A stretch of DNA of 50,006 bases, taken from NCBI GenBank assembly GCA_947629245.1, contig CANRDC010000010.1, forward strand, positions 1 to 50,006, written 5' to 3'. The notes beneath the pieces were generated by a model. The model did no database searches, was not told where the DNA came from, and saw only the letters and a list, made by a program, of their open reading frames with translations. The position numbers and the translations under genes are program-made. Source of the DNA: an uncultured Oscillospiraceae bacterium (GTDB lineage: Bacteria > Bacillota > Clostridia > Oscillospirales > Oscillospiraceae). Below are positions 8,596 to 50,006 of this stretch, one piece after another (within the stretch, counting starts at the first letter, position 1; every line of letters begins with the position of its first letter).

Positions 8596-9680
8596 AGAAA
8601 AAGCGCGATTGGGGCTATCTGGGAAGCCTGTGTATCAGCGTGCTGCTGGCCTTCGTCATCGGCGCGGTCATCCTGGCCGTGGCCGGGTTCAGCCCGGTAA
8701 AGGCCTACGCCGCCATGGCCAGCGGGGCCTTTTCCAGCGCCCGGCACATCGGAGACTTTTTGGAATACGCCATGGTGCTGTGCCTGACGGGCCTTGCCTG
8801 CGTGCTGGGCTCCCGTGTGGGCATCTTCAACGTGGGCGGCGAGGGCCAGCTGCTGCTGGGGGCCGTGGTGGGCTGCCAGGTGGGGGTATGGCTGAACGGA
8901 CAGAGCCCGTGGCTGGCGATCCCCGCCGCGGCGCTGGCCGCCATGGCCGTGGGGGCTTTCTACGCCCTCATCCCCGGCTGGCTCAAGGTGAAGGTGAAGG
9001 TCAACGAGGTCATCACCACCATCATGCTCAACACCATCGCCGCGAGCCTGTGCCAGTACCTGGCCAAGGGCCCCTGGAAAAACCCCAACAAGAACATGGT
9101 GGCCGCCACCGCCCAGTTGGACCCCCGCTACTGGTTCAAGACCCTGATCCCCGGCTCCAATCTCTCCACCGCCATCATCGCCGCCGCCGTCGTCACCTTC
9201 CTGACCTGGTACGTCATGCAAAAGACCTCCACGGGCTACGAGATGAAGCTCACAGGCCAGAATCCCCGCTTCGCCTTCTTCTCCGGCATCAAAACGGATA
9301 GGATCGTGCTGGCGTGCATGTGCATTTCCGGGGCCATGTGCGGCCTGGTGGGCATGTTCCGGGTCTACGGCGCGGAGCATCTCTATCGCAGCAGCGTCAG
9401 CAACCAGTACTACTTCGAGGGTCTGACCGTGGCCATGATCGCCCGGTACGACCCCGTGACGGTCATCGGACTGTCCTTCCTCTTCGCCATATTGAAGATC
9501 GGCGCCCAGGGCATGGAGCTGTCCGCCGGGGTGCCCAACCAGATCTACCTGATCATCCAGACGGTCGTCATCTTCTGCATGGCGGCGGAGAGCGGCGTCT
9601 TTGCCTCCCTCCGGGCCGGGGCCCAGCGGAAAAAGGCGCGGGCCGACATCCGGCGAAAGGAGGAAGAGAGCCATGTTTGA
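8592..9680 (+). CDS. Nucleoside-type ABC transporter permease 1
   Basis: A 362-residue polytopic membrane protein of the BPD_transp_2 (RbsC/NupP) family. It has about ten helices with the characteristic GIFNVGGEGQLLLGA segment and the VNEVITTIMLN cytoplasmic coupling segment. The ATG at 8592 overlaps the ATPase stop by 4 bp; a longer open frame upstream is in the wrong context. The C-terminus is strongly basic. Its stop overlaps the next permease start by 8 bp. Confidence 0.92.
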   Translation: MKKKRDWGYLGSLCISVLLAFVIGAVILAVAGFSPVKAYAAMASGAFSSARHIGDFLEYAMVLCLTGLACVLGSRVGIFNVGGEGQLLLGAVVGCQVGVWLNGQSPWLAIPAAALAAMAVGAFYALIPGWLKVKVKVNEVITTIMLNTIAASLCQYLAKGPWKNPNKNMVAATAQLDPRYWFKTLIPGSNLSTAIIAAAVVTFLTWYVMQKTSTGYEMKLTGQNPRFAFFSGIKTDRIVLACMCISGAMCGLVGMFRVYGAEHLYRSSVSNQYYFEGLTVAMIARYDPVTVIGLSFLFAILKIGAQGMELSAGVPNQIYLIIQTVVIFCMAAESGVFASLRAGAQRKKARADIRRKEEESHV

Positions 9681-10611
9681 GGGCGTCCTCCGAAGCGTCT
9701 TTTCCGCCGGTACCTTCAATCAGATGCTCCGCTCCGCCACGCCGGTGGCGCTGGCGGCTCTGGGCGGGGCCATGACCGAGCACGCGGGCATCATGAACAT
9801 CGGCATGGACGGCATGATATTGATGGGCGCGTTTTTCGGCGTGCTGGGAAGCTATTTCTTCGGCTCCGCCGCGGCAGGGGTGGCGCTGGTGCTGGCCATG
9901 GGCGTTTTAGTGGGCCTTTTCTTCGCGCTTTTCGTGGTGAAGTTCAAATCCGACGAGTTCATCATCGGCACGGCCCTCAATACTTTCGCCCTGGGCCTGA
10001 CCAGCTTTCTCAGCCGCTCCATCTTCGGCGCGGCGGGCACCAAGGGCAACCCCGCCCTGCCCACGGTCCATATCCCCGGCCTGGACGCTGTCCCCTTCCT
10101 GGGGCGGGTGCTGAACGACAACTCCCTGTTCGTCTACGTCACCTGGGCGCTGGTGCTGATCATGTGGCTTTTCGTATACAGGACCCCCTACGGGTTCTGG
10201 CTGCGAGCCAGCGGCGAAAAGCCCGAGACCCTTCGCACCGCTGGCATCGCGCCGGAGAGGATGAAGTGGCTCGCCAGCGTTCTGTGCGGACTTCTCTGCG
10301 GTCTGGCGGGGGCCCACCTGTCCCTGGGTCAGCTGCAGGGCACCTTCGCCGAGGATATGGCAAACTCCCGGGGCTATATCGCCTTCGCCTGCGTCATCTT
10401 CAGCCGGGCCAACCCCGCCGCGGCCTACGGCGCGGCGCTGATGTTCGGCTTCTTTGACGCCATCGGCCTGCGTCTGCAGGACTACATCAGCTCGGACCTG
10501 ACCAACACCATCCCCTACGTCATCACCATCGTCATGATGGTCTACGTGGTGGTCCGCTCCCAGCGCAAAAAACGCCGCGCGGGCAAAAGACTTCCCGCCC
10601 GGCAGACGTAA
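9673..10611 (+). CDS. Nucleoside-type ABC transporter permease 2
   Basis: A 312-residue membrane protein of the same family (RbsC/NupQ-like). MTEHAGIMNIGMDGMILMGA corresponds to the signature of the first permease, and SDEFIIGTALN to its coupling segment. The ATG at 9673 has AGGAAGAGAG upstream inside the previous gene. It closes the operon and is followed after 11 bp by a strong terminator. The two permeases would form a heterodimeric channel driven by the double ATPase. Confidence 0.92.
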   Translation: MFEGVLRSVFSAGTFNQMLRSATPVALAALGGAMTEHAGIMNIGMDGMILMGAFFGVLGSYFFGSAAAGVALVLAMGVLVGLFFALFVVKFKSDEFIIGTALNTFALGLTSFLSRSIFGAAGTKGNPALPTVHIPGLDAVPFLGRVLNDNSLFVYVTWALVLIMWLFVYRTPYGFWLRASGEKPETLRTAGIAPERMKWLASVLCGLLCGLAGAHLSLGQLQGTFAEDMANSRGYIAFACVIFSRANPAAAYGAALMFGFFDAIGLRLQDYISSDLTNTIPYVITIVMMVYVVVRSQRKKRRAGKRLPARQT

Positions 10612-34220: not shown

Positions 34221-35966
34221 TCAGTACTGCTCCACGTCCTGGAGGGCGTCGTAGCCCTCCTCGCCGGTGCGGACCTTGACCACGTTCTCCACGTCGTAGA
34301 CGAAGATCTTGCCGTCGCCGATGTGGCCGGTGTAGAGCACCTTCTTGGCCGTCTCGATGACCGTGCGGACGGGTACCTTGCTGACCACGATCTCCACCTG
34401 GATACGGGGCAGGAGGGTGATGTCCTGGACCACGCCCCGGTAATACTCCGGCTTGCCCTTCTGTACGCCGCAGCCCATCACGTTGGTCACCGTCATGCCG
34501 GTCACGCCGATGTCCAGCATGGCCGCCTTCAGAGCCTCGAACTTCTCCATATGCAGCAAAATGGTCACGTTGCTCATCTTCACCGAAGCGTCGGAGGCCA
34601 CCGGCCTGGGAGAGCGGACCTGTACCGGCACCGCCTCGTCCACGGGCGCGGCGGGCACGTCGCCCGGACGGCCATCTCCGGCGGCGGCCACGGCGGGCAT
34701 GCCCAGGGCGGGCATGAAGTCCGCGTAAGCGCTCACCAGGCCGTGCTCGGTCACGTCCAGACCCATCAGCTCCTCCTCCGGCTTCACCCGCAGACCGATG
34801 GTGGCCTTGATGAGCAGGAAGAAGATGGTGATGGTCACCGCCGTCCAGCCGATCACCGCCGCGATGCCCAAAAGCTGCACGCCCAGCAGGTGGAACCCGC
34901 CGCCGTAGAACAGCCCCGTCAGGCTGTCGTTGCCGGGGGCGGAAGTGGTGGCGAACAGTCCCACGGCGATGCCGCCCCAGACGCCGTTCAGGCAGTGGAC
35001 CGCCACGGCGCCCACGGGATCGTCCACCCGCAGCTTGTTATCCAAAAACCACACGCCGAACACCACCAGCAGGCCGGATACCGCGCCAATGGCGATGGCG
35101 CCCGCGCAGTCGGTCACGTCGCAGGGGGCCGTGATGCCCACCAGACCCGCCAGGGACGCGTTCAGGCACATGGACACGTCCGGCTTGCCGTACTTCAGCC
35201 ATGTGAAGATCATGCACACGGTGGTGGCCACGGCGGGAGCCACGGTGGTGGTCAGAAACACGCTCCCCAGCTGCTCCACGCTGGTGCAGGCCGCGCCGTT
35301 GAAGCCGTACCAGCCCAGCCACAGAATGAACACGCCCAGCTCTCCCAGAGGGATGTTGTGGCCGGGGAAGGCGTTGACCTTCACGACCTTGCCCTTGGCG
35401 TCCCTGGTGAACTTGCCGATCCGGGGCCCCACCAGGGCCGCGCCGATGAACGCGCACACGCCGCCCACCATGTGGATGGCCACGGACCCGGCGAAATCAT
35501 GGAACCCCAGCTGACTGAGCCAGCCGCCGCCCCAGATCCAGTGGGCCTCAATGGGATAGATCAGCGCCGAGATCACGCCGGAGTAGATGCAGTAGGACAA
35601 AAACTTCGTCCGCTCCGCCATGGCGCCGGACACGATGGTGGCCGTGGTGGCGCAAAAGACCAGGTTGAACACGAAGTTGGACCAGTCAAAGTTTTCGTAG
35701 GCCGTGAAGATGTCGAACCCCGGCTTGCCGATGAAGCCCAGCACGTCCTCTCCCAGCAGCAGACTGAAGCCGATGAGAATGAACACGCAGGTGCCGATGC
35801 AGAAGTCCATCAGGTTCTTCATCAGGATGTTGCCCGCGTTCTTCGCCCTGGCAAATCCGCTCTCCACCATGGCAAAGCCCGCCTGCATCCAGAACACCAG
35901 CGCCGCGCCGATCAGAAACCACACGCCAAATATCTCGCCCGACAGACTCTCCAAGATCTCTTCCAT
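34221..35966 (-). CDS. Ammonium transporter fused to a C-terminal P-II domain
   Basis: A 581-residue fusion. Residues 1-405 are an Amt channel with eleven helices, including the twin-histidine positions (AIHMVGG and VAVHCLNG). A Pro/Ala/Val-rich linker (about 415-460) leads to a complete P-II domain (463-581): T-loop GCGVQKGKPEYYRGVVQD with the uridylylatable-type Tyr, and TGHIGDGKIFVYDVENVVKVRTGEEG. P-II proteins normally bind and block Amt when 2-oxoglutarate is low; here inhibitor and channel are one chain. An AGGAGG ribosome binding site and an attenuator-like leader precede it. No glnK, glnB or glutamine synthetase gene is nearby. Confidence 0.92.
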   Translation of the reverse strand: MEEILESLSGEIFGVWFLIGAALVFWMQAGFAMVESGFARAKNAGNILMKNLMDFCIGTCVFILIGFSLLLGEDVLGFIGKPGFDIFTAYENFDWSNFVFNLVFCATTATIVSGAMAERTKFLSYCIYSGVISALIYPIEAHWIWGGGWLSQLGFHDFAGSVAIHMVGGVCAFIGAALVGPRIGKFTRDAKGKVVKVNAFPGHNIPLGELGVFILWLGWYGFNGAACTSVEQLGSVFLTTTVAPAVATTVCMIFTWLKYGKPDVSMCLNASLAGLVGITAPCDVTDCAGAIAIGAVSGLLVVFGVWFLDNKLRVDDPVGAVAVHCLNGVWGGIAVGLFATTSAPGNDSLTGLFYGGGFHLLGVQLLGIAAVIGWTAVTITIFFLLIKATIGLRVKPEEELMGLDVTEHGLVSAYADFMPALGMPAVAAAGDGRPGDVPAAPVDEAVPVQVRSPRPVASDASVKMSNVTILLHMEKFEALKAAMLDIGVTGMTVTNVMGCGVQKGKPEYYRGVVQDITLLPRIQVEIVVSKVPVRTVIETAKKVLYTGHIGDGKIFVYDVENVVKVRTGEEGYDALQDVEQY

Positions 35967-38013: not shown

Positions 38014-38871
38014 TTATCCCGCGGCGTAAGCGGCCGCGATAAAGGTCCGGGCGGCCTCGGCGTTATCGTTGGTCGTATTCTCCAGCGTGGCCTGGATGAA
38101 GGGCTTGCGCTCCCGGACGAAGCGCAGGATGCGGCTGTAATCCATCTCCCCCGTACCGGCGGCGACGCTGCGCAGCTTGTCCCCTTCCCGGACGAAGTCC
38201 TTCAAATGGACCACCGCCACATACTCGCCCAGCTTGTCGATGGCGTCGGCAAACACCCGGTCCCGCTCGTCGGCGTTGCCGGTGTACAGCAGGTTCACCG
38301 GGTCCAGGATGATCCGCAGATCATGGCTGCCGATGCTCTTGAGCACCTTCAGGGCCCGGTCGGCGTTGTAGACGATGTGGTTCCACACCGGCTCGATGGC
38401 CACGGTCACGCCGTAGCTCTCCGCGCATTCCACCACCGGCGCCAGGCCCCGGATGAACGTCTCCAGCGCCTCGTCCGTGTGGGTGTTGGCGTCCAGCTTG
38501 TACTCGGCGTTGGGCGCGCCGGTCTCCGTGCCCACCACACCGGCGCCCATGATGGACGCCACCCGGATATGGCCGTAGTACCGGCTCTGGATCTCCCGGA
38601 GCTTCGCCGGGTCCGGGTGCGCCAGGTTCAGATAGCAGCCCAGCACGGCCACATCCAGCCCCGCCCGGGCGAACACGCCCTTCGCATACATCCCCAGCCC
38701 CTCCGTCAGGGCCGCGGCGTCAAAGCTCACGCCGCCGATCACCTTGGCAAAGGCCAGGTGCACGCAGGAAAAGCCCTCCTGCCTGGCCGTCCGGGCGCGG
38801 GCCTCCATGGTCTGCTTTTCCGGGCCCAGGCCCGCGTTCACATCGTGCAAACGGATACCGATCTGGATCAT
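38014..38871 (-). CDS. Sugar phosphate isomerase/epimerase family (TIM barrel)
   Basis: A 285-residue protein of the AP-endonuclease-2-like TIM-barrel family. Segments include IQIGIRLHDVNAGLG, FSCVHLAFAKV, VAVLGCYLNLAHPDP, VTVAIEPVWNH with a metal-ligand Glu, LRIILDPVNLL, VVHLKDF and the late ATLENTT. Members isomerise or epimerise sugars, inositol or hydroxypyruvate. In this operon a role on a uronate or ketodeoxy-sugar intermediate is likely. The ATG at 38871 follows AAAGGAG. Last gene of the operon. Confidence 0.85.
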   Translation of the reverse strand: MIQIGIRLHDVNAGLGPEKQTMEARARTARQEGFSCVHLAFAKVIGGVSFDAAALTEGLGMYAKGVFARAGLDVAVLGCYLNLAHPDPAKLREIQSRYYGHIRVASIMGAGVVGTETGAPNAEYKLDANTHTDEALETFIRGLAPVVECAESYGVTVAIEPVWNHIVYNADRALKVLKSIGSHDLRIILDPVNLLYTGNADERDRVFADAIDKLGEYVAVVHLKDFVREGDKLRSVAAGTGEMDYSRILRFVRERKPFIQATLENTTNDNAEAARTFIAAAYAAG

Positions 38872-38949
38872 AGCGCTCCTTTCCCGCGGCCCTCCAGGGC
38901 CGCGGCGTTCCAAAAAACGCAATGAGCGGGGCGTTCGCCCCGTCCATGC

Positions 38950-39729
38950 TTACGGCGTATAGGAAAATCGTTCGTTGAGCCAGGTCTGGCACAGGGGCAG
39001 CCAGGCCCGGCATACGCTGTCCGGCGTCTCCACCTCCTGGGTACAGGTGGAGGTTCCGTGTCCGCCCGTGGCGAACATGTGCAGTTCAAAGGGCACGCCA
39101 TGCGTTTTCAGCGCCGCGGCCAGCATCAGGCTGTTCTCCGGCGGAACGCTGTCGTCCTCGCCGCCGTGCCACAAAAACGTGGGCGGGAAATCCGCCGTCA
39201 CCCGCTCGGGCAGATGCAGCTTCGCCCGCATGGCCGGGTCGCCGCCGGACACCCACATGACGGACTCCTCATGGGCAAAGTCCTTCGTGCTGATCACCGG
39301 ATAGCACAGCGCCAGCGCGTCGGGCCGCACGCCCTCCGGCAGACCCACGGTCGGATCGTTCCAAAAGGCACCCAGACTGGCGGCCAGGTGCCCGCCCGCC
39401 GAAAAGCCCATCACGGCGACCTTTCCGGGGTCGATATGCCACGCCCCGGCGTTTTCCCGCACGAGGCGCACCGTCTCCGCCAGCTCCCACAGGGGCCGAA
39501 AATCCGCCGCCTTCTCCGCCCCGGAATATTCCAGGATGAACGCCTGGTATCCCATGGCCAGGAACGCGAACGCTGGCGGGTCCTCCTCCCGGGGGGAGCA
39601 CCAGCGGTAGGCTCCCCCGGGGCAGATGACCAGCGCCGGTCGGACCTTATGGGCCCGGAGGGTGTCGTAGTCCTCCTGGATATATCCCGTCACCCGGCCG
39701 TCCAGCGCCCGGAAGGAAACGGTCCGCAT
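38950..39729 (-). CDS. Alpha/beta hydrolase, BD-FAE/acetylxylan-esterase-like
   Basis: A 259-residue cytoplasmic esterase. The oxyanion segment CPGGAY, nucleophile elbow GFSAGGH (Ser110), acid in GGEDDSVP and His224 in TGGHG form a complete triad. Related proteins deacetylate sugars or remove feruloyl or methyl groups from plant polysaccharide fragments. Within a pectin operon, removal of acetyl groups from imported oligogalacturonides is plausible. There is no signal peptide. Its ATG overlaps the kduD stop by one base (TGATG). Confidence 0.83.
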   Translation of the reverse strand: MRTVSFRALDGRVTGYIQEDYDTLRAHKVRPALVICPGGAYRWCSPREEDPPAFAFLAMGYQAFILEYSGAEKAADFRPLWELAETVRLVRENAGAWHIDPGKVAVMGFSAGGHLAASLGAFWNDPTVGLPEGVRPDALALCYPVISTKDFAHEESVMWVSGGDPAMRAKLHLPERVTADFPPTFLWHGGEDDSVPPENSLMLAAALKTHGVPFELHMFATGGHGTSTCTQEVETPDSVCRAWLPLCQTWLNERFSYTP

Positions 39730-40529
39730 CAGGGCTGCTTGCCGATGTAGGCCAGGATGCCGCCGTCCACATACAGGATGTGGCCGTTGACGAAGTTGGA
39801 CGCGTCGGAGGCCAGGAACACCGCGGGACCCATCAGGTCCTCCGCCTCGCCCCAGCGGCCCGCGGGGGTCTTGGAGACGATGAACTGGTCGAAGGGATGG
39901 CGGCTGCCGTCGGGCTGGCGCTCCCGCAGGGGCGCGGTCTGGGGCGTGGCGATATAGCCGGGGCCGATGCCGTTGCACTGGATGTTGGCCTCGCCGTACT
40001 CGGAGCAGATGTTCCGGGTGAGCATTTTCAGGCCCCCCTTGGCCGCGGCGTAGGCGCTGACCGTCTCCCGGCCCAGCTCGCTCATCATGGAGCAGATGTT
40101 GATGATCTTGCCGTGGCCCTTGGCGATCATGCCGGGGATCACGGCCTTGGCGCAGATGAACGGGCCGGTCAGGTCGATGTCCACCACCTGGCGGAAGTCC
40201 TCGGCGCTCATCTCCAGCATGGGGATGCGCTTGATGATGCCCGCGTTGTTCACCAGGATGTCCACGCCGCCAAGGTCCGCCTGGATCTTCGCCACCAGGT
40301 CGGCCACCTGGGCCTCGTCGGTCACGTCGGCGATGTAGCCCTTGGCGTCGATGCCTTGCTCGGCATAGGCGGCCAGGGCCTTGTCCATATTGCTCTGGCT
40401 GCGGCAGTTGAAGACGATCTTCGCTCCCGCGCCCGCCAGGGCCTGGGCGATGGCGAAGCCGATGCCGTAGGCCGCGCCGGTGACCAGGGCCACCTTGCCC
40501 TCCAGAGAAAACTGTTTCATCATATCCAT
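39729..40529 (-). CDS. kduD: 2-dehydro-3-deoxy-D-gluconate 5-dehydrogenase
   Basis: A 266-residue short-chain dehydrogenase. It has the TGAAYGIG nucleotide motif, NNAG, and catalytic Ser/Tyr/Lys in CSMMSELGRETVSAYAAAK. It reduces 2,5-diketo-3-deoxygluconate to 2-keto-3-deoxygluconate, the step after KduI in uronate degradation. The adjacent kduI gene supports the identification over other SDRs. AGGAAGG lies before the ATG at 40529. Confidence 0.92.
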   Translation of the reverse strand: MDMMKQFSLEGKVALVTGAAYGIGFAIAQALAGAGAKIVFNCRSQSNMDKALAAYAEQGIDAKGYIADVTDEAQVADLVAKIQADLGGVDILVNNAGIIKRIPMLEMSAEDFRQVVDIDLTGPFICAKAVIPGMIAKGHGKIINICSMMSELGRETVSAYAAAKGGLKMLTRNICSEYGEANIQCNGIGPGYIATPQTAPLRERQPDGSRHPFDQFIVSKTPAGRWGEAEDLMGPAVFLASDASNFVNGHILYVDGGILAYIGKQP

Positions 40530-40552: not shown

Positions 40553-41395
40553 TCAGCGCAGGTCTGTGGAGTTGATGTTGTCCATATCGTCAAAGGCCTG
40601 GTTCTCGCCGCCCATGGCCCAGATGAACGTGTAGTTGGAGGTGCCGCAGCCGCTGTGGATGGACCAGGACGGGGAGATCACCGCGTCGAAGTTCTGCATG
40701 ACCAGATGCCGGGTCTGCTGGGGCTGGCCCATGAAGTGCATGACCACGTGGTCCTGGGGGATCTCAAAGTAGGTGTACACCTCCATGCGGCGCTCATGGG
40801 TGTGGCTGGGCATGGTGTTCCACACGCTGCCCGGCGCAAGCTGGGTCAGGCCCATGGAAAGCTGGCAGGTGGGCAGCACGTCCGGGTGGATGAACTGGTT
40901 GATGACCCGCTTGTTGGCGTTTTCCGCCTCGCCGCAGGGCCGGTGATTGGCCTTTTCATAGGTCAGCAGCGTGGTCTTGTAGCTGGTATGGGCCGGGGTG
41001 GAGGCCAGATAGAACCTGGCGGGCTGGGCGGGGTCGTCGCTGGAAAAGACCACCTTTTCCGCGCCCTTGGCGATGTACAGGCAGTCCTCGTAGCCCAGCT
41101 CGTAGCGCGTTCCGTCCACCTCGATGGCGCCCTTGCCGCCCAGATTGAACACGCCCGCTTCCCGGCGCTCCAGGAAGAAATTGGTGCCGAAGTTGGCCCA
41201 GACGTCGATGCCCTTGTCAATGGGCACCGCCTCGTGCACGGGCATGATGCCCATGACCACCATCCGATCCACGTGGGAGTAGGTGGCCTGGACCGTGTCA
41301 GGCTGATAGAGGTCGGTAATGAGAAATTCCCTGCGCAGCTCCTCGGTGGTATAGCGCTTCACGTCGTTGGGGCTGGCAGAATAGCGGATATCCAT
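40553..41395 (-). CDS. kduI: 5-dehydro-4-deoxy-D-glucuronate isomerase
   Basis: A 280-residue cupin-type isomerase converting 4-deoxy-L-threo-5-hexosulose uronate to 2,5-diketo-3-deoxygluconate. MDIRYSASPNDVKRYTTEELR at the start and the metal site MPSHTHERRMEVYTY (two His and Glu) with a later His in SIHSGCGTSNY are characteristic. The length fits the family. It lies between the ABC ATPase (15-nt gap) and kduD (23-nt gap). The genes for the next steps (kdgK, kdgA) are not in the window. Confidence 0.96.
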   Translation of the reverse strand: MDIRYSASPNDVKRYTTEELRREFLITDLYQPDTVQATYSHVDRMVVMGIMPVHEAVPIDKGIDVWANFGTNFFLERREAGVFNLGGKGAIEVDGTRYELGYEDCLYIAKGAEKVVFSSDDPAQPARFYLASTPAHTSYKTTLLTYEKANHRPCGEAENANKRVINQFIHPDVLPTCQLSMGLTQLAPGSVWNTMPSHTHERRMEVYTYFEIPQDHVVMHFMGQPQQTRHLVMQNFDAVISPSWSIHSGCGTSNYTFIWAMGGENQAFDDMDNINSTDLR

Positions 41396-41410: not shown

Positions 41411-42490
<1,080 letters not shown>

Positions 42491-42544
42491 AATTGATGTC
42501 TCCTTACTCATTGGTTTTGCAGTTCGCGACATGGTCCGGGGCGC

Positions 42545-42572: not shown

Positions 42573-42643
42573 AACCGACAAAATTTGATAAACTATACTA
42601 TCACGCGGTGGAAAACCCACCTGCGGAAAGGAGTCTGCGAAGG

Positions 42644-43411
42644 GTGTATTCGATCATCTATGCGGGCCGTCATCCGCTGACGACGGGCGTCTCCCGCCAC
42701 ATGCACACCACCTGGGAGCTGATCTTCTGCACCAGCGGCAGCGGCGCTCTCGTCTTTGACGACAGGACCCTCTCCTACGCGGAAAACGACGTGGCCGTCA
42801 TTCCCCCGCACATCCCCCACTCCAACCGGAGCGACGACGGCTTCACGAACATACATGTCAACATCTCGGACATGCCTCTCGCTTACACGGAGCCGGTGAT
42901 CGTCCGGGCCGATCCCAACGGCTTTCTGCTGGACGCCTTCAACGCGGTGTATTACTTCTTCACCGGCGGTAAGGAGGACAAGACCTTTCTCCTGCCCCTG
43001 TACGGCCAGCTCATCGCGGCCTTTCTGAAAGTCAGCCAGCCCGCCGGGTCCCGCAGCAGCGTCGTGCTGGATATCGAGAACAACATCCTGCAGAATTTTT
43101 CCGACTGCGGCTACGACCTGCACGCCTATCTCCGGACCCTGCCGTTCAGTCCGGAATACCTGACGAAGCTGTTCAAGCACGAGACGGGCATGACGCCCTT
43201 CCAGTACCTGAAAAACTGCCGCCTGGAAAACGCCGCCAATATCCTCACCGTGATGTACGGCCGGGGCAGCATCTCCGACGCGGCCCGCCTGTGCGGCTTC
43301 AACGACCCGCTGTACTTCTCCCGCCAGTTCCGGAAACGGTACGGCGTGTCCCCCCGAGACTTCAAATCGGTCATGGCCCCGGACGGGGACAGCGTGAAGA
43401 CTATGCTGTGA
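42644..43411 (+). CDS. AraC-family transcriptional regulator
   Basis: A 255-residue regulator. The N-terminal cupin-like sensing domain (HMHTTWELIFCTSGSGALVFDDR, VAVIPPHIPHSN) is followed by a C-terminal double helix-turn-helix (LPFSPEYLTKLFKHETGMTPFQYLKNCRLENAANIL and ISDAARLCGFNDPLYFSRQFRKRYGVSPRDF). It is divergent from the kdu operon and convergent with the GH105 gene, whose end it overlaps by 11 bp, so it is the likely activator of pectin genes. The GTG at 42644 is chosen because AAAGGAG lies 11 nt upstream; an earlier GTG lacks one. Confidence 0.88.
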   Translation: MYSIIYAGRHPLTTGVSRHMHTTWELIFCTSGSGALVFDDRTLSYAENDVAVIPPHIPHSNRSDDGFTNIHVNISDMPLAYTEPVIVRADPNGFLLDAFNAVYYFFTGGKEDKTFLLPLYGQLIAAFLKVSQPAGSRSSVVLDIENNILQNFSDCGYDLHAYLRTLPFSPEYLTKLFKHETGMTPFQYLKNCRLENAANILTVMYGRGSISDAARLCGFNDPLYFSRQFRKRYGVSPRDFKSVMAPDGDSVKTML

Positions 43412-44531
43412 GCCGCTTGATCTCCGTATAGGCCAGCACGAAGGGCGCCACGCCCTTGGCGTCGTTGGCCACCACCGGCTCGGAGATGTAGTACTCATAG
43501 GACCCGTCGCGTCGGCGGTTGTTCTCCGGCCCCAGGCCCGCCACCAGGCAGATACCGCCCAGGTCCAGGCCGCTGTCCGTGAAGGTCAGATACTTATCCA
43601 TGATGCCGTCGAAGGTCTTTTGGCCCTTGGCGGCATATTCCTTGCCCAAAACGCCCAGCCGCGCGCCCTTGAGCATGGCGTAGGCCATCATGGCGCTGCC
43701 GCTGGTCTCCAGATAGTTCCCTTCCCGGCCGCCCTGATCCGGCACCTGCCAGTAAAGGCCCGTCTCGCCGTCCGCATAACGGCTCACCGCCGCCATCAGG
43801 TCCGCGAAGATCCCCGCCAGCTCCCGGCGCTCCTCCCCCTCCGGGAGGATGTCCGTCAGGTCCGCCAGCGCCACGGCGAACCACCCCAGAGAGCGGAGCC
43901 AGAAATTCTTCGAGCAGCCGGTCACCGGGTCCGCCCAGAACGCGGTCCGGGAGGCGTCGTAGCCGTGGTAGTAAAGGCCCTTCTCCCGGTCCAGCATCCG
44001 CTCGTGGACCGTGCGGATCTGCCGGACGATGTCCGAGTAGTCCCTGCGGCCGAAGTGCTTTTCATACAGCGCCCGGAAGGGCTGGGCCATATAAAGGCCG
44101 TCCAGCCAGACCTGGTTGGGATAGATGGCCTTGTGCCAGAAGCTGCCCTCCGCCGTCCGGGGCTGGGCGTCCAGCTGCCGGGCCAGGCCGTCCGCCGCCA
44201 GGCGGTACTTCTCCTTGCCCGTGCGGTCGTACAGCTCAAAGAGGACCCGGCCCTCGTTGATGTCGTCCAGATTGTGGTCGTCCGGCTTGAAGGTGCGGAT
44301 GGAGCCGTCCTCCCGCACGAAGTGGTCCGCCACCTTCTCCGCGAAGGCCCCGTAGCGCCCGTCGCCGGTGATGCGGGTCATCTCCATGAGCGCGGTGAGC
44401 ATGCAGCCGTCGATATAGTTCCAGGACGCCTTCTTGCCCTCCCGGAGCTTCTCCATGTTCCAGGCGGTGCGCTCCGGGGTGGAGCTCTCCACCAGCTGGA
44501 GCACGTAAGCGTCGATCCTGCCGTAATCCAT
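43401..44531 (-). CDS. GH105 unsaturated rhamnogalacturonyl/galacturonyl hydrolase
   Basis: A 376-residue (alpha/alpha)6-barrel enzyme of the YteR/RhiN family, without a signal peptide. It removes the unsaturated uronate left by pectate or rhamnogalacturonan lyases. The general acid Asp144 lies in VWLDGLYMAQPF, matching Asp143 of YteR, and LDDINEGRVLFELY precedes it. The product feeds KduI. Its start overlaps the GH28 stop by one base (TGATG). It is the last gene of the right-hand operon; its 3' end overlaps the convergent AraC gene and no terminator is evident. Confidence 0.92.
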   Translation of the reverse strand: MDYGRIDAYVLQLVESSTPERTAWNMEKLREGKKASWNYIDGCMLTALMEMTRITGDGRYGAFAEKVADHFVREDGSIRTFKPDDHNLDDINEGRVLFELYDRTGKEKYRLAADGLARQLDAQPRTAEGSFWHKAIYPNQVWLDGLYMAQPFRALYEKHFGRRDYSDIVRQIRTVHERMLDREKGLYYHGYDASRTAFWADPVTGCSKNFWLRSLGWFAVALADLTDILPEGEERRELAGIFADLMAAVSRYADGETGLYWQVPDQGGREGNYLETSGSAMMAYAMLKGARLGVLGKEYAAKGQKTFDGIMDKYLTFTDSGLDLGGICLVAGLGPENNRRRDGSYEYYISEPVVANDAKGVAPFVLAYTEIKRLTA

Positions 44532-46099
44532 CAGTCCACCTCAAAATCCGTCTTTTCGATGTCCTCGCAGTGGTCCGCGATCAGGCCCTCGCCCTCCACG
44601 CCGGTAAGATGCACGTTATGCACCCGTATCCGGCGCACATTGTCCAGATACAGTCCCAAGCGGCAGCGATTCTGGGCGAAGTTCTGCATGGCGGGCACGC
44701 CGGGCTTCGCGTCCTCGGCAAAGCGGACGCTGATATCCGCCAGCTCCACCTGGTCGATGGGGCTCTCCGTGAGCCCGTCGATGTAGCAGGCCGCCACCTC
44801 CGCGCCGGTGCACTCCATGTTGCGGAAGGAGAATTTCCCCATGCGGGGGGTCCGGTCGTCGACGGGGAGTTTTTTACGGGACCAGACATACTCCGTGTAC
44901 CGGTCCGGGTCGCAGCAGTTGTACCACAGATTGATGACGATGGGCGTGAGTACGTTCTCCATGCGGATATTGTTAAAGGACACGTCGGTGATATAGCTGT
45001 CCTTGCCCCGGCCCCGGCGGGATTTGATCCGCAGGCCCCGGTCCGTGGCCCGGAAATAACACTGACTCACGCTCAGATTTTGTATACCGGCGGCCAGCTC
45101 GCTGCCCAGCGTCACCGCCCCGTGGCCGAACTGCATCAGGCAGTTTCGGATCATATGGTGGTCGGCGGGCCTTTTATATTTGCGGCCCATGTCGATCTTG
45201 CCGGACTTGATGGCGATGCAGTCGTCGCCCACGGAGAACCGGCAGCCGATGATATTGACCCCGTCGCAGCTCTCCGGGTCGATGGCGTCGGTGTTGGGGC
45301 TGTCCTTGGGAGCCGTGACGGCGCAGTCGTACAGGGACACGTCCTCGGAAAAGAAGGGGTGCAGGTGCCAGGACGGGCCGTTGGCCACCGTCACGCCGTG
45401 CAGGGTGATATGCTTCGAGCGGTTAAGGAACACCACCCTCGGCCGGGCGGCCGGGAAGCTTTTGAAGTCTCCCCACCAGTCGCCGTTTTGCCCGTTGCCG
45501 TCGATCACGCCCCGGCCCACGACGGTCACGTCCTCCGCGTAGGAGGCGTGCAGCAGGGACTGGTACATGTCCCCCTCGATGCCCTCGAAACCGGCCTGGG
45601 GCAGCTCCCGGCCCGTGACCGGGTCGACGCAGACGCCCCGGATGATGGGATAGCGCTCCCGCTCCGTGGAGCCCAGGAGCGTGGCGCCCTCCGAAAGCTC
45701 CAGGGTGATATGGCTCTTCAGCGCCAGCGGCAGCGTCAGATACGTCCCCGGCGGGAAAAACAGCCTGCCGCCCTCCGGCAGGAAGTTGATGGCCGCCTGG
45801 ATGGCGACCGTGTCCTCGTGGACGCCGTCGCCCGCCGCGCCGAAGTCCCGCACGCTGACGCAGCAGCGCTCGCTCCGGGTGCGGACCTGCGCCCGCTCCT
45901 CTCCGCCGGAGGCGAAGCGGACCGCGATCTCGTACTCCCTCTCCGGCGTCAGGCTGAACAGGGAGAACACGTTGGCGTCGCCCCGCAGGACCTGTACGCC
46001 GTCCACGCAGACGGTATATTCCTCCGGCGCGTAATACGGTCGGCTGCTCTCAAGCTCAAAGCACGCGGAACTGCTCCCGCGATAGAGGACGTGTATCAT
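44531..46099 (-). CDS. GH28 polygalacturonase, cytoplasmic
   Basis: A 522-residue right-handed beta-helix enzyme. An N-terminal fibronectin-like part (about 1-75) precedes the GH28 domain, with catalytic residues in NTDAID (Asp271), GDDCIAIKSG (Asp292, Asp293), FGHGAV (His326) and RIKS (Arg357, Lys359). There is no signal peptide, so it probably acts as an exo-enzyme on imported oligogalacturonides, releasing galacturonate. It lies between the transporter genes and GH105 and is translationally coupled to the latter. Confidence 0.93.
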   Translation of the reverse strand: MIHVLYRGSSSACFELESSRPYYAPEEYTVCVDGVQVLRGDANVFSLFSLTPEREYEIAVRFASGGEERAQVRTRSERCCVSVRDFGAAGDGVHEDTVAIQAAINFLPEGGRLFFPPGTYLTLPLALKSHITLELSEGATLLGSTERERYPIIRGVCVDPVTGRELPQAGFEGIEGDMYQSLLHASYAEDVTVVGRGVIDGNGQNGDWWGDFKSFPAARPRVVFLNRSKHITLHGVTVANGPSWHLHPFFSEDVSLYDCAVTAPKDSPNTDAIDPESCDGVNIIGCRFSVGDDCIAIKSGKIDMGRKYKRPADHHMIRNCLMQFGHGAVTLGSELAAGIQNLSVSQCYFRATDRGLRIKSRRGRGKDSYITDVSFNNIRMENVLTPIVINLWYNCCDPDRYTEYVWSRKKLPVDDRTPRMGKFSFRNMECTGAEVAACYIDGLTESPIDQVELADISVRFAEDAKPGVPAMQNFAQNRCRLGLYLDNVRRIRVHNVHLTGVEGEGLIADHCEDIEKTDFEVD

Positions 46100-46120: not shown

Positions 46121-46744
46121 TTATTTCGCGCGGCCTCGGAAAAGGCCCTTGAAAAACAGCTTGATCTGGATCAGCAGCACGTCGAAGCCCATGCAGAAGA
46201 TCCCGAACAGGATGGGCTCCACCCCCAGCGGCACGGTATCCGCCGCGCCGGTGAAGTGGATGATGGTCAGGTTGATGACGTTGTACAGCAGCGCCACCAA
46301 TATGAGGATCACATAGCCGTACAGGATATTCAGCGGGAAGCTGATAAATCCCTTCTTGGGGAACATCATCCACCGGTCGTTGGCCCCCTGGGTCTTGGAG
46401 ATGAAGCGCAGCACGTTGTTCGTCAGAAGGTCGGTGACGATGCCCAGAGCCGTGCCCGTGACGAACAGCATGTCCAACTGGTCGGCATAGTAGTTGCCCA
46501 GGCCCCACATGAAGAAGAAGCACACGGCCCCGGCGAACCAGGCCTTGATGAACAGCGCCTTCACCCAGTCGGCGATCTTCACCTTGCCGTGGGAACGGTA
46601 GGCCCGAAGCTCCTCCTCGGACACCTTGGGGGAGTTGGCCTCGTTGGCGGTCACAAGGTCGTCTACCGCCTTCGTATTCAGCTTGTAGTAGTCCTTCTGC
46701 CGGTCGATCTCAGGCTTGCCGCCCTTGGACGCGCGCTTGCTCAT
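46121..46744 (-). CDS. Four-helix membrane protein D of the pectin ABC operon
   Basis: A 207-residue protein of unrecognised family. A charged cytoplasmic N-terminus (about 60 residues) is followed by four predicted membrane helices (about 63-86, 89-107, 137-161, 172-197) and a basic C-terminus. There is no MalF/MalG EAA loop. It starts 10 nt after gene C and precedes GH28 by 21 nt, so it belongs to the ABC operon. One of four similarly sized four-helix proteins here; perhaps part of the channel or an accessory to it. Confidence 0.75.
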   Translation of the reverse strand: MSKRASKGGKPEIDRQKDYYKLNTKAVDDLVTANEANSPKVSEEELRAYRSHGKVKIADWVKALFIKAWFAGAVCFFFMWGLGNYYADQLDMLFVTGTALGIVTDLLTNNVLRFISKTQGANDRWMMFPKKGFISFPLNILYGYVILILVALLYNVINLTIIHFTGAADTVPLGVEPILFGIFCMGFDVLLIQIKLFFKGLFRGRAK

Positions 46745-46754
46745 GGGCGGTCCG

Positions 46755-47348
46755 TCAGGCCTCGCCGGAGATGTCTATCTCGTCCATGGCGCCGTTGTCC
46801 ACGACCTCCACAGATGTCTTGATCTTCCGGATCAGCTTGGAGTACACCGGCAGCAGCACGGTCAGCGCGATCCCGCCGCACAGGATGCCGATGTGCATGC
46901 GGACATATTTCTGGGCGGAGGCGATGTATGCGGTGGCGTCCGTGATGGTGATGGGGTTCTCCGCCCGGGTGAGGGCGTTGCTGATGCAGCGCAGGTAATA
47001 GGCGTCCGCGAAGATGACCACGCCCAGCATCGCGAACATCAGCGCCAGCATGGGCACGTTCACCTTTTTCCGGTAGGGGAAGGCGTTCATGAAGCACACC
47101 AGGCTCAGCATGGAAAACAGCATTGTCGCGAAGCCGGAAAGGCCCATGCCCGGCCCCTGGATCTTGGCGGTGGTATCGGACACGTGCATCAGGTTCAGCG
47201 AATACACCAGAAACCCTATTACCAGCACGACCAGCGGGATCATCTGGGGCCGGCGCTTGATGGACACCAGGAACTTCCGCCACGCCTCCTTGAGGCCAGC
47301 GGCGAGCCTCTGGCCAAAGGGTTTTTTCTCGCTCTGTTTCGTTGCCAT
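46755..47348 (-). CDS. Four-helix membrane protein C of the pectin ABC operon
   Basis: A 197-residue protein with a basic N-terminus and four predicted helices (about 36-56, 71-91, 98-118, 148-168), with a positively charged YRKK turn after helix 2. After helix 4 the C-terminus has KLIRKIKTS. Its topology mirrors protein A of the same operon. The ATG at 47348 lies 2 nt after the ATPase stop with AGGAAGGG upstream; a GTG two codons earlier is possible. No family recognised, no EAA loop. Confidence 0.75.
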   Translation of the reverse strand: MATKQSEKKPFGQRLAAGLKEAWRKFLVSIKRRPQMIPLVVLVIGFLVYSLNLMHVSDTTAKIQGPGMGLSGFATMLFSMLSLVCFMNAFPYRKKVNVPMLALMFAMLGVVIFADAYYLRCISNALTRAENPITITDATAYIASAQKYVRMHIGILCGGIALTVLLPVYSKLIRKIKTSVEVVDNGAMDEIDISGEA

Positions 47349-47350
47349 GC

Positions 47351-48433
47351 TCACTCACCCTTCCTTATGGCGTTGGTCGTCTCCTTGTCGAAAAAGTGCT
47401 TCCGTTTGAAGGAGAAGCTGATCGCATCGCCGGTCTTGTAGTCGCTCCAGCCCTTGAGCTTGGCGGAGATCTTCGCGCTGGCCGCCTTGGACGAACCGAT
47501 GTGCCCGTGGACCAGCGTGTTCATGCCCAGATTCTCGTTGCTGCTCACCGTGACGGGAACATCCGGGCCCTCCGTCACATCCTCAGGCCGCACGCCGAGA
47601 ACGATCGTCCTGCCGTTGTACGCCTTGAGGGTATCCTGCTCCTCCGCCGTCAGAGCCACCTGGAAGCCCTCGCCGGTGAGCGCGCCGCCGGAGACGGTCA
47701 CGTCGTAGAAGTTCATGGGCGGCAGGCCGATGAAACCGGCCACGAAGATGTTGGCCGGGGAGTCGTACAGCTCCAGGGGCGTGCCCACCTGCTGGACATA
47801 GCCCATGGACATGCACACGATCCGGTCCGCCAGGGTCAGGGCCTCGGTCTGGTCGTGGGTGACGTAGAGCATGGTGGCGCCCAGGCGCTTGTGCAGCAGC
47901 AGTATCTCCCGGCGGGTAGCGCCGCGGAGCTTGGCGTCCAGGTTCGACAAGGGCTCGTCGAACAGGAACACCTTGGGGTTGCGCACGATGGAACGGCCCA
48001 TGGCCACACGCTGGCGCTGGCCGCCGGACAGCTGGGCCGGTTTTTTATTCAACTGGCTGGTCAGACCCAGGATCTCCGCCGCAGCCAGGACTTTTTTATG
48101 GATCACATTGGGGTTTTCCTTGCGCATGGTCAGGGAGAAGGCCATGTTCTCATAGACCGTCATATGGCCGTAAAGGGCGTAGTTCTGGAACACCATCGCC
48201 ATATCCCTGTCCTTGGCGGGGGTGACGGTGATATCCTTCCCGTCCAGAAAGAGCCTGCCCGCGGAGATGTCCTCCAGACCGGCCACCATCCGCAGGGTGG
48301 TGGACTTGCCGCAGCCGGAGGGACCCACCAGCACGATCAGCTCCCCGTCCTTCACGTCCAGGTTGAAGTCAAAGACAGCCTGGACTTTATTGTCGTATAT
48401 CTTATCGATATGCTGTAAGCTCAATGTGGCCAT
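47351..48433 (-). CDS. Carbohydrate ABC transporter ATPase, MsmX/UgpC type (copy 2)
   Basis: A 360-residue ATPase: Walker A GPSGCGKST, Q-loop VFQNYALYGHM, signature LSGGQRQRV, Walker B VFLFDEPLSNLDAK, VTHDQ and a C-terminal TOBE domain. It lies in the middle of the operon, flanked by two small membrane proteins on each side, which suggests a dedicated ATPase for the importer that uses the solute-binding protein at 49680-50006. Confidence 0.93.
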   Translation of the reverse strand: MATLSLQHIDKIYDNKVQAVFDFNLDVKDGELIVLVGPSGCGKSTTLRMVAGLEDISAGRLFLDGKDITVTPAKDRDMAMVFQNYALYGHMTVYENMAFSLTMRKENPNVIHKKVLAAAEILGLTSQLNKKPAQLSGGQRQRVAMGRSIVRNPKVFLFDEPLSNLDAKLRGATRREILLLHKRLGATMLYVTHDQTEALTLADRIVCMSMGYVQQVGTPLELYDSPANIFVAGFIGLPPMNFYDVTVSGGALTGEGFQVALTAEEQDTLKAYNGRTIVLGVRPEDVTEGPDVPVTVSSNENLGMNTLVHGHIGSSKAASAKISAKLKGWSDYKTGDAISFSFKRKHFFDKETTNAIRKGE

Positions 48434-48445
48434 GTCTTCCCCTCC

Positions 48446-48940
48446 TTACGCGCTCTGGGTCTGGGTCTCGATGGTCTTCAGATGCGCCGCCAGCTCCCGG
48501 CAGCGGATGAAGTTGACCGCGGCGGACGCCAGCAGGCAGGCCGCCGACAGGAGCAGCAACGCCACCACATAAATGAACGTCTTGTCCCCCATGACGGAGA
48601 CGGTCTCGCCGTTGACAAGGGTGGCGGCGGCATGGGCACGGGCGGGGATGATGAAGATCCGCACGATCTGCCCCAGGCCGATCGCCGCCAGAAGCCAGGT
48701 GTAACCGGCCTTATAGTTCTTCACGCCCTCGGACGCCAGGAACACCGCCAGCAGGAACACCAGATTGTATACGATGGAGGCGCCGATCAGGATCGTGTAG
48801 TAGTACGTGCCCACGTCGGACTGGTAGATCCTGACGAAATAGAGCACGTCGAACAGGATGCCCAGGATCGCCAGGTTGGCGGCCAGGGAGTTTTTCACGT
48901 ATCTCATCCGGTCTCTTTTGACCATGCGTTCTTCCGTCAT
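48446..48940 (-). CDS. Four-helix membrane protein B of the pectin ABC operon
   Basis: A 164-residue protein with four predicted helices (about 21-40, 46-70, 78-98, 119-143) and a charged C-terminus. The sequence is hydrophobic with YYYTILIGASIVYNLVFLLA in the second helix. The ATG at 48940 overlaps the stop of protein A (TGATG) with AAGGAGG upstream; the longer upstream frame is a shadow of gene A. No family recognised and no EAA loop. It precedes the ATPase by 12 nt. Confidence 0.75.
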   Translation of the reverse strand: MTEERMVKRDRMRYVKNSLAANLAILGILFDVLYFVRIYQSDVGTYYYTILIGASIVYNLVFLLAVFLASEGVKNYKAGYTWLLAAIGLGQIVRIFIIPARAHAAATLVNGETVSVMGDKTFIYVVALLLLSAACLLASAAVNFIRCRELAAHLKTIETQTQSA

Positions 48941-49530
48941 CACGCCGCGGCCTCCTTTCCCGCTTTCACGAGCTTTGCTTCCTGTTTCATGAGGCAGGCC
49001 TTCCACACCGCGTTGGCAACCAGCAGCACGCTCACCAGCAGCACCAGGCCGAACACGCCGTAGTGGGCGTCGAACCAGAACGTGGACTCGGTATACAGCG
49101 TGCCCCACATATCCGCGTGCTCCTTCAGCGCGGCGAAATCCACCTGCAGGAACTGGCCCTTGAATATCTCGATGTAGCTGTGGGCAAACACCGACAGGGC
49201 AACGCCCGCCGCGGCGTACACGCCGGTGGCGAAATAGTTGCCGATATAGTAGCGCCGACGCGTATGGGTGTTGGTGACGAACAGCAGCACGGCCAGCAGG
49301 ATCAGGCCGATGCTGTACACCAGAAATACGCGGTTGAACTCCTGCATGTTGTAGTACACGATGGAGCCGGGCACGCTGGTCTGCGTCAGATCGTTGGGGT
49401 TGCGCATGGTGCTGTACAAGCTGTCATAGAGATCGGTCATGATCCCCAGAGAATAGAGGAACACTAACGCGCTCACAAAGATAGCCGCCAGGCACAGGAC
49501 CTTTTGCGCGAGCATCTGTTTTTTGTACAT
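48940..49530 (-). CDS. Four-helix membrane protein A of the pectin ABC operon
   Basis: A 196-residue protein with four predicted helices (about 12-34, 67-86, 94-117, 157-178); a cluster of Arg follows helix 2 (HTRRRYY) and a basic tail follows helix 4. Loops of about 30-40 residues lie between helices 1-2 and 3-4, probably outside. The ATG at 49530 follows AAGGAGG. It is the first gene after the solute-binding protein. No family recognised. Similar in plan to protein C, which may be a distant paralogue. Confidence 0.75.
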   Translation of the reverse strand: MYKKQMLAQKVLCLAAIFVSALVFLYSLGIMTDLYDSLYSTMRNPNDLTQTSVPGSIVYYNMQEFNRVFLVYSIGLILLAVLLFVTNTHTRRRYYIGNYFATGVYAAAGVALSVFAHSYIEIFKGQFLQVDFAALKEHADMWGTLYTESTFWFDAHYGVFGLVLLVSVLLVANAVWKACLMKQEAKLVKAGKEAAA

Positions 49531-49616
49531 GACAACCTCCTTCCGGGGGAAGCTCCGCCCCTGCACCGGGGAGCTTTCGCCCCCCGGCGCGTTGGGATCA
49601 GTATTTTTTCGGCAGT

Positions 49617-49643
49617 CCTCCGCCCGGTCGGACCGGGCAGAGG
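49617..49643. repeat. Intercistronic stem-loop after the solute-binding protein gene
   Basis: CCTCCGCCCGGTC and GACCGGGCAGAGG are complementary over 13 bp with one mismatch and a minimal loop. A second AAGCTCC/GGAGCTT stem lies nearby, around 49550-49576. No T-tract follows on the minus strand, so they probably protect the binding-protein mRNA or limit read-through rather than terminate fully. Confidence 0.55.
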
Positions 49644-49679
49644 CTGTCGCGCCAGGGTCAATGCGTTGGGGATAAGGTA

Positions 49680-50006
49680 TCAGCCGATGGTCGCGTAGTA
49701 GTCAAGAGCGCGGGTCCAGGCGTCCTGCTTCAGAGCCAGATACTGCTTGCCGCTCCAGGCGTTCGCCACGTGATCGGCGGAGCTGGCGGCGTCAGACATG
49801 TTGGCGTCGGTGTAGCCGGAGACGATCTCCTCGACCAGGATGTTGCTGCCGTCCTTGTTCTGGTTGAACTTCTCGGTCAGATCGGTATAACCGGCGATCA
49901 TCTCGTTCTCCTGCTGCGTGGTGGGCAGGACGGTGGGCACGGAGGTGTACCAGCTGTTCTCGGCAACGGCCAGCTCGGGGTGCTTGATGGTGCCCAGGGC
50001 GATGGC
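49680..50006 (-). CDS. Carbohydrate ABC transporter solute-binding protein, C-terminal part
   Basis: The reading frame is open to the right edge, so only the last 108 residues are present. They include HPELAVAENSWYTSVPTVLPTTQQENEM and end in DAWTRALDYYATIG. The style (helical, Asn/Gln/Thr-rich, ending shortly after a conserved hydrophobic helix) fits the C-terminal lobe of a family-1 extracellular solute-binding protein, and its place at the head of the operon supports that. The ligand is probably an oligogalacturonide, inferred from GH28, GH105 and kduID. Signal peptide and first lobe are outside the window. Confidence 0.75.
   Translation of the reverse strand, partial: AIALGTIKHPELAVAENSWYTSVPTVLPTTQQENEMIAGYTDLTEKFNQNKDGSNILVEEIVSGYTDANMSDAASSADHVANAWSGKQYLALKQDAWTRALDYYATIG

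Follow-up and report, generated by a model that had tools for sequence, protein, structure and literature searches.

A conserved nine-gene unit encodes an AlgM1-like sugar importer and five additional membrane proteins

In a 50,006-nucleotide contig from an uncultured Oscillospiraceae bacterium (GenBank assembly GCA_947629245.1, contig CANRDC010000010.1; this whole stretch is hereafter the window), four genes for small membrane proteins, named A to D, surround the ATPase gene of a pectin-linked ATP-binding cassette (ABC) importer. Comparison with related loci makes it likely that A-D and a fifth membrane protein, E, serve as dedicated accessory subunits of a single importer, whose genes form the uninterrupted series E-F-G-SBP-A-B-ATP1-C-D, in which F and G are the permeases MalF and MalG, SBP is the solute-binding protein and ATP1 is the ATPase. 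Binding-protein-dependent sugar importers are described as consisting of a single binding protein, a pair of permeases and a pair of ATPases. The initial annotation of the window had suspected in A-D a conserved module tied to the importer, an idea that is strengthened here and widened from four to five extra proteins, E being encoded upstream of MalF and outside the window. The part of the unit that lies in the window reads as follows.

49680..50006 (-): 3' end (108 codons) of the SBP gene, an open frame that runs off the contig edge
48940..49530 (-): gene A, a membrane protein of 196 amino acids (aa) with four long helices and two long acidic extracellular loops (from 37 relatives, an AlphaFold2 model and topology)
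48446..48940 (-): gene B, a 164-aa membrane protein with four predicted helices, overlapping A (from alignment, the overlap and hydropathy)
47351..48433 (-): ATP1, a MalK/MsmX-type ATPase of 360 aa (Pfam ABC_tran and OB_MalK above cut-off)
46755..47348 (-): gene C, 197-199 aa depending on the start, with four predicted helices, a basic N tail and a conserved C tail (from alignment, topology and hydropathy)
46121..46744 (-): gene D, a 207-aa membrane protein with probably four helices and a 65-residue cytoplasmic N tail (from alignment, topology and co-occurrence with the MalF ortholog)

At the coordinates first annotated, A-D are confirmed as open frames for membrane proteins; they all lie on the minus strand and flank the 360-aa MsmX-type ATPase. 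Their link to the importer is borne out by gene order. Scanning an 84,980-species collection with A, which reaches close relatives only, returned 37 loci that are 65-89% identical, in records titled Oscillospiraceae, Lachnospiraceae, Erysipelotrichaceae or Clostridia. Together with 7 further stretches and 19 loci from a divergent family, f69, this gave 63 loci, some of them near-duplicates (e.g., L115 and L116). The nine genes follow one another in the same order on one strand in 53 of the 63 loci, and in the remaining 10 genes are missing only at a contig or stretch end, so that no internal loss is seen. Neighbors are at most 499 bases apart, with more than 300 bases between them in only three cases. 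The order persists even where the pairwise identity of A-E falls to about 20% (minimum 0.19-0.24 in 47 loci that also carry genes for glycoside hydrolases (GH) of families GH28 and GH105). In these 47 loci with all eleven genes, the distances of the nine genes correlate with one another at 0.81-0.98, against 0.70-0.87 with GH28/GH105, except for D at 0.93. Moreover, two loci (L099 and L102) hold the unit with GH28 and GH105 absent from the fetched stretch, although the region upstream of E was not seen in L099; the nine genes, rather than the enzymes, therefore look like the unit. The initial annotation had tied failure of the module idea to two observations together, namely MalF/MalG permeases beside the binding protein and absence of the A-D order from other genomes. 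The permeases do lie beside the binding protein, but the order recurs in other genomes, and since both observations were required, the idea stands.

Because the 63 loci had been found through A or D, we made a reciprocal test in 151 genomes of family f69, in which F orthologs were compared with D. D occurs in 21 of these genomes, as 23 near-complete copies and one fragment, while F-like permeases at E <= 1e-20 are found in 72. The F scores fall into two groups, with 23 copies at 465-668 bits and the others at 221 bits or less, and the 23 high-scoring copies occur in exactly the 21 D-bearing genomes, with two copies apiece in G999 and G1076. The two units of G999, L099 (where the stretch breaks off within E) and L100, have diverged from each other. 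In the same genome, a second binding protein of the same family is encoded directly after D (L099, 7157-9565, minus strand), and the genes beyond it resemble, by eye, proline biosynthesis genes and not pectinases. In G1076, two units with equal profile scores (L115 and L116) lie ~20 kb apart on one contig (C1), which is either a recent duplication or an assembly artefact. The genes are rare. Of 200 genomes sampled from the window's family, 11 have D, its own genome counted, and two genomes of the same genus lack it; A is clearly present in 4 of 391 genomes of the class (with three weak matches), E in 3 of 391, and B in 1 of 398 genomes of the phylum, namely its own (with two weak matches). The system is therefore patchy, and its passage between lineages as a unit is possible.

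The initial annotation had noted that no classical permease was in view and had suspected MalF/MalG genes just outside the right edge. The first remark holds for the window, and no ABC-permease domain was found in A-D, but it is very probably untrue of the operon, and the suspicion is borne out in relatives. The window is the complete contig (C10); its right end falls inside the SBP gene, and nothing lies further right in this assembly. By eye, the fragment at this edge looks like the C-terminal end of P0006, a binding protein of 718 aa from the relative L041, a locus of Erysipelotrichaceae bacterium NK3D112. Searching the window's own genome with an E profile led to another contig, C16, on which the N-terminal part of a binding protein (a 290-codon open frame), MalG (296 aa), MalF (351 aa) and E (193 aa) follow in this order, all on the minus strand; a divergent pectinesterase-like gene lies after E. 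The binding-protein fragment at the start of C16 belongs to the same family as that of C10, and the MalF on C16 is 89% identical to F of L041. MalF/MalG lie directly upstream of SBP in relatives, with E-F-G-SBP directly preceding A, which makes it very probable that the operon is split between C10 and C16. Since the contig, all of which is in the window, breaks off within SBP, the missing permeases are very probably an assembly-edge effect and would be the MalF and MalG at the end of C16.

These permeases place the core of the system close to a known importer. In L041, F and G both score above the Pfam cut-off for BPD_transp_1, and EAA-type loops can be made out by eye in each. The best solved relative of this F is AlgM1 (residues 41-350, E = 2e-64), which F exceeds by a conserved N-terminal extension of about 40 residues. 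The binding proteins are large, with open frames of 707-1002 aa versus 490-502 aa for AlgQ1 chains. A leader-like hydrophobic segment is found in 55 of 59 by a simple hydropathy criterion, and a lipobox is visible by eye in that of L041; the large binding protein is probably a lipoprotein. The L041 protein (7674-9830 of that locus, plus strand) matches no Pfam or NCBIfam family, and its similarity to AlgQ1 is very weak (E = 9.7e-05, ranked behind spurious matches to WD40 designs at 1.8e-06). It may represent a new family of binding proteins.

For ATP1, the best solved relative is MsmX (6yir, E = 2.4e-104), and AlgS aligns at E = 2.3e-97. It falls in the UgpC subfamily of NCBIfam (434.2 bits for a cut-off of 432), and TOBE_2 stays below its cut-off (18.8 of 21 bits). 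The contact residues described for MsmX as a multitask ATPase are D77, R104, E110 and K154 (excerpt of PMC7658222). In ATP1 orthologs, D77 is kept in 62/62, R104 in 61/62 and K154 in 62/62, while position 110 is V, I, T or L in all 62 and never E.

Compared with this familiar core, the five extra proteins have no convincing family match. E is predicted to adopt the fold of S-components of energy-coupling factor (ECF) transporters, yet it matches no S-component family in Pfam (23 members scanned), the E of L041 falls in no NCBIfam family, and no EcfT subunit is encoded in the nine-gene unit. As for A-D, searches gave no convincing Pfam match, no CbiQ/EcfT domain and no signaling domain above chance level, and revealed no detectable relation of the four to one another; hhalign related none of them to F or G, its sensitivity being low here since it scored F versus G at only 58%. 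They are genes under purifying selection, as their nonsynonymous-to-synonymous substitution ratios (dN/dS) against five relatives are 0.12-0.44. The frames of A and B share 4 bases (median over 36 loci). At a strict hydropathy threshold, A, B, C and D have 3, 4, 4 and 3 membrane segments, and their relatives mostly 3-4. The four helices first annotated for each protein are thus recovered directly for B and C; A and D show only three, but the AlphaFold2 model of A contains four long helices and a short one (predicted local distance difference test 85.6, predicted template modeling score 0.80), and in D we placed the second helix by eye. We therefore take all four proteins to have four membrane helices. 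The charge pattern of the loops in 63-72 homologs, with segments also set by eye, puts all N and C termini inside. In A, the two outer loops (35 and 40 residues) are acidic and conserved at 0.65 and 0.67, against 0.62 for the helices. In D, the outer loops are short and variable (0.39 and 0.37), while the 65-residue inner N tail is conserved at 0.58.

In the window, the unit is followed by genes for pectin breakdown and by a second MalK-type ATPase.

44531..46099 (-): GH28 polygalacturonase, export signal not seen (Pfam Glyco_hydro_28)
43401..44531 (-): GH105/GH88-type uronyl hydrolase, export signal not seen (Pfam Glyco_hydro_88)
42608..43411 (+): AraC-family regulator (Pfam HTH_18; homolog in 48 of the 63 stretches)
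41411..42532 (-): ATP2, second MalK-type ATPase of a distinct clade (Pfam ABC_tran)
40553..41395 (-): KduI-like isomerase (N terminus nearly the same as that of the L041 KduI, which passes the NCBIfam cut-off)
39729..40529 (-): KduD-like short-chain dehydrogenase (Pfam adh_short; named from its place after KduI)

GH28 is present in 55, GH105 in 56 and pectinesterase in 43 of the 63 stretches. By the simple hydropathy criterion, no hydrophobic segment was found in 54 complete GH28 and 56 complete GH105 proteins, and 1 of 39 pectinesterases has one; two pectinesterases have a hydrophobic N-terminal window, possibly a start-site extension. This lack of recognizable export signals in GH28 and GH105 suggests import first and processing inside, with oligogalacturonides, perhaps still methylated, probably being taken up before their final breakdown in the cytoplasm. 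ATP2 is ~50% identical to ATP1, and the MsmX residues kept in ATP1 are as a rule missing from it. It occurs in 41 of the 63 stretches but near the unit in only 2 of the 19 from family f69; in the closer group its conservation is about that of ATP1 (85.8% vs. 86.6% mean identity in 80 pairs from 25 loci). After the KduD-like gene, a sugar-isomerase-like TIM barrel and a BD-FAE-type esterase are encoded (38014-39978, minus strand), and this esterase may deacylate imported pectin. Further on, an ammonium transporter and a P-II nitrogen regulator domain are fused in one frame (34221-35966, minus strand).

How does the unit compare with known systems? The importers closest in kind are Sphingomonas AlgM1-AlgM2-AlgS-AlgS with AlgQ1/AlgQ2 (PDB 4tqu) and its Streptobacillus relative Smon0120-0123, for which the substrate class, acidic sugar polymers, is alike. 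These are described as a binding protein, two permeases and two ATPases (excerpt of PMC5717064), whereas our unit has five more membrane proteins, a larger binding protein and the additional ~40 residues at the N terminus of F. Assignment to the AlgM1/AlgM2 branch of type I (CUT1) importers presupposes that no other membrane subunits are encoded; here, A-E accompany the core wherever the contig allows. In Bacillus subtilis, YtcQP-YteP and YesOPQ have a role in the uptake of polygalacturonan and rhamnogalacturonan fragments, probably energized by MsmX (excerpt of PMC5730181). ATP1 is closest to MsmX but, unlike in those systems, is encoded inside the unit and lacks E at position 110. Dickeya TogMNAB is an ABC system for the uptake of pectic oligomers, according to a title cited in PMC12838403. 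ECF transporters, with S-components such as PanT, ThiT and RibU, differ in that our unit has no EcfT, its E has no sequence match to theirs and its core, which includes a binding protein, is of type I. To our knowledge, and without sequence comparison, TogMNAB has no counterparts of A-E. Our literature searches returned no description of the nine-gene importer.

We infer that the nine products form one complex, with a core like that of Sphingomonas AlgM1-AlgM2-AlgS-AlgS-AlgQ. The binding protein would catch negatively charged oligogalacturonides and dock on F/G, and two copies of ATP1 would power transport. For the five extra proteins, a position around F/G is most likely. A may use its long, acidic outer loops to meet the binding protein and the sugar chain; through their conserved inner tails, C and D may touch ATP1 or the N-terminal extension of F, and E would add a subunit with an S-component fold. 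Cytoplasmic pectinesterase, GH28 and GH105 would then finish long or still methylated fragments. The system is best regarded as a variant of type I ABC importers with a real chance of a new hybrid architecture. In its fullest form, such a hybrid class would join a type I core, an ECF S-component-fold subunit and four tetraspan subunits in one nine-protein machine, in which A-E form an enlarged outer vestibule or a lipid-side ring, by which pectin chains that are long and still methylated are fed inward before being cut in the cytoplasm; this elaboration is tentative, and we hold it to be considerably less probable than the role of A-E as accessory subunits.

Several points weigh against treating A-E as subunits of this importer. 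Since A or D served to find the 63 loci, and some of these are near-duplicates, the synteny counts are conditional. The F-versus-D comparison alone is independent of that selection, but it covers two genera and its F cut-off was chosen after the score gap had been seen, so the 21 genomes do not count as 21 independent events. Among the 31 closer loci, correlations within the nine (0.60-0.93) are no higher than those with GH28/GH105 (0.71-0.93), and common inheritance of the cluster is therefore a large part of the signal. The fold match of the predicted model of A is a generic four-helix bundle, and what A shares with eukaryotic tetraspan auxiliary subunits (TARP, FcepsilonRI beta and sarcospan) is a general shape of four long helices and two outer loops. 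A related core was active without accessory proteins (excerpt of PMC5717064), and the excerpted text on the B. subtilis importers lists a binding protein and two permeases and mentions no accessory membrane proteins (PMC5730181). Finally, oligogalacturonides are the presumed substrate from the neighboring genes only, and two units (L099 and L102) have none of these in their stretch.

Two other readings are improbable to a similar degree. In one, A-E, or E with some of A-D, would be a second, ECF-like transporter sharing ATP1 and the operon, for example for a smaller galacturonate-derived product. The predicted fold of E favors this, as does the presence of an EcfT-like protein (PF02361) encoded elsewhere in all ten genomes tested, a point that also counts against E as an importer subunit since a lone S-component could in principle act with that EcfT. 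However, A-D have no EcfT-like domain, and the nine genes stay together although EcfT is located elsewhere. Small-xxx-small is the pattern by which S-components contact EcfT. Even at the most favorable of the five positions examined in helix 1, no more than 24 of 52 E sequences keep it. In the other reading, A-E would be assembly or stability factors, needed for biogenesis but outside the working machine. Small, unrelated membrane proteins with no recognized catalytic domain could well be chaperones, and strict co-occurrence would equally be expected of them. Yet five factors for one AlgM1-type core would be unusual, the related core is active after purification without any (excerpt of PMC5717064), and A has conserved extracellular loops, which suggest that it makes contacts beyond the membrane.

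It is quite unlikely that A-D are regulators or sensors reporting transport to the AraC regulator or another signaling pathway. Their place within a catabolic cluster, with an AraC-type homolog in most stretches, would suit such a role, but they lack recognizable signaling domains, and L099 and L102 retain A-D with no AraC homolog in the stretch. The split or divergent permease pair in place of MalF/MalG, which the initial annotation had offered as one option, seeing an ATPase flanked by four membrane proteins but no permease in the window, is very improbable and we reject it because both permeases are present: complete MalF and MalG, with BPD_transp_1 and EAA loops recognizable by eye, lie upstream of SBP in relatives, close homologs of both are on C16 of the window's own genome, and hhalign, though not very sensitive here, relates A-D to neither. 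That A-D are passengers of the operon with no transport role is barely credible, for although clusters can be inherited whole, the 63 loci show no internal loss, dN/dS indicates selection and the match with the F ortholog is 21 out of 21.

In records of Oscillospiraceae, Lachnospiraceae and Erysipelotrichaceae, the AlgM1-like importer is thus never found without the five extra membrane proteins in the loci examined, contig ends aside, and five families of hypothetical proteins gain a testable role. If A-E are subunits, they would define a new importer architecture linking two classes of ABC importers so far kept apart, and this may account for the ability of some gut Firmicutes to import pectin fragments where ordinary importers fail.

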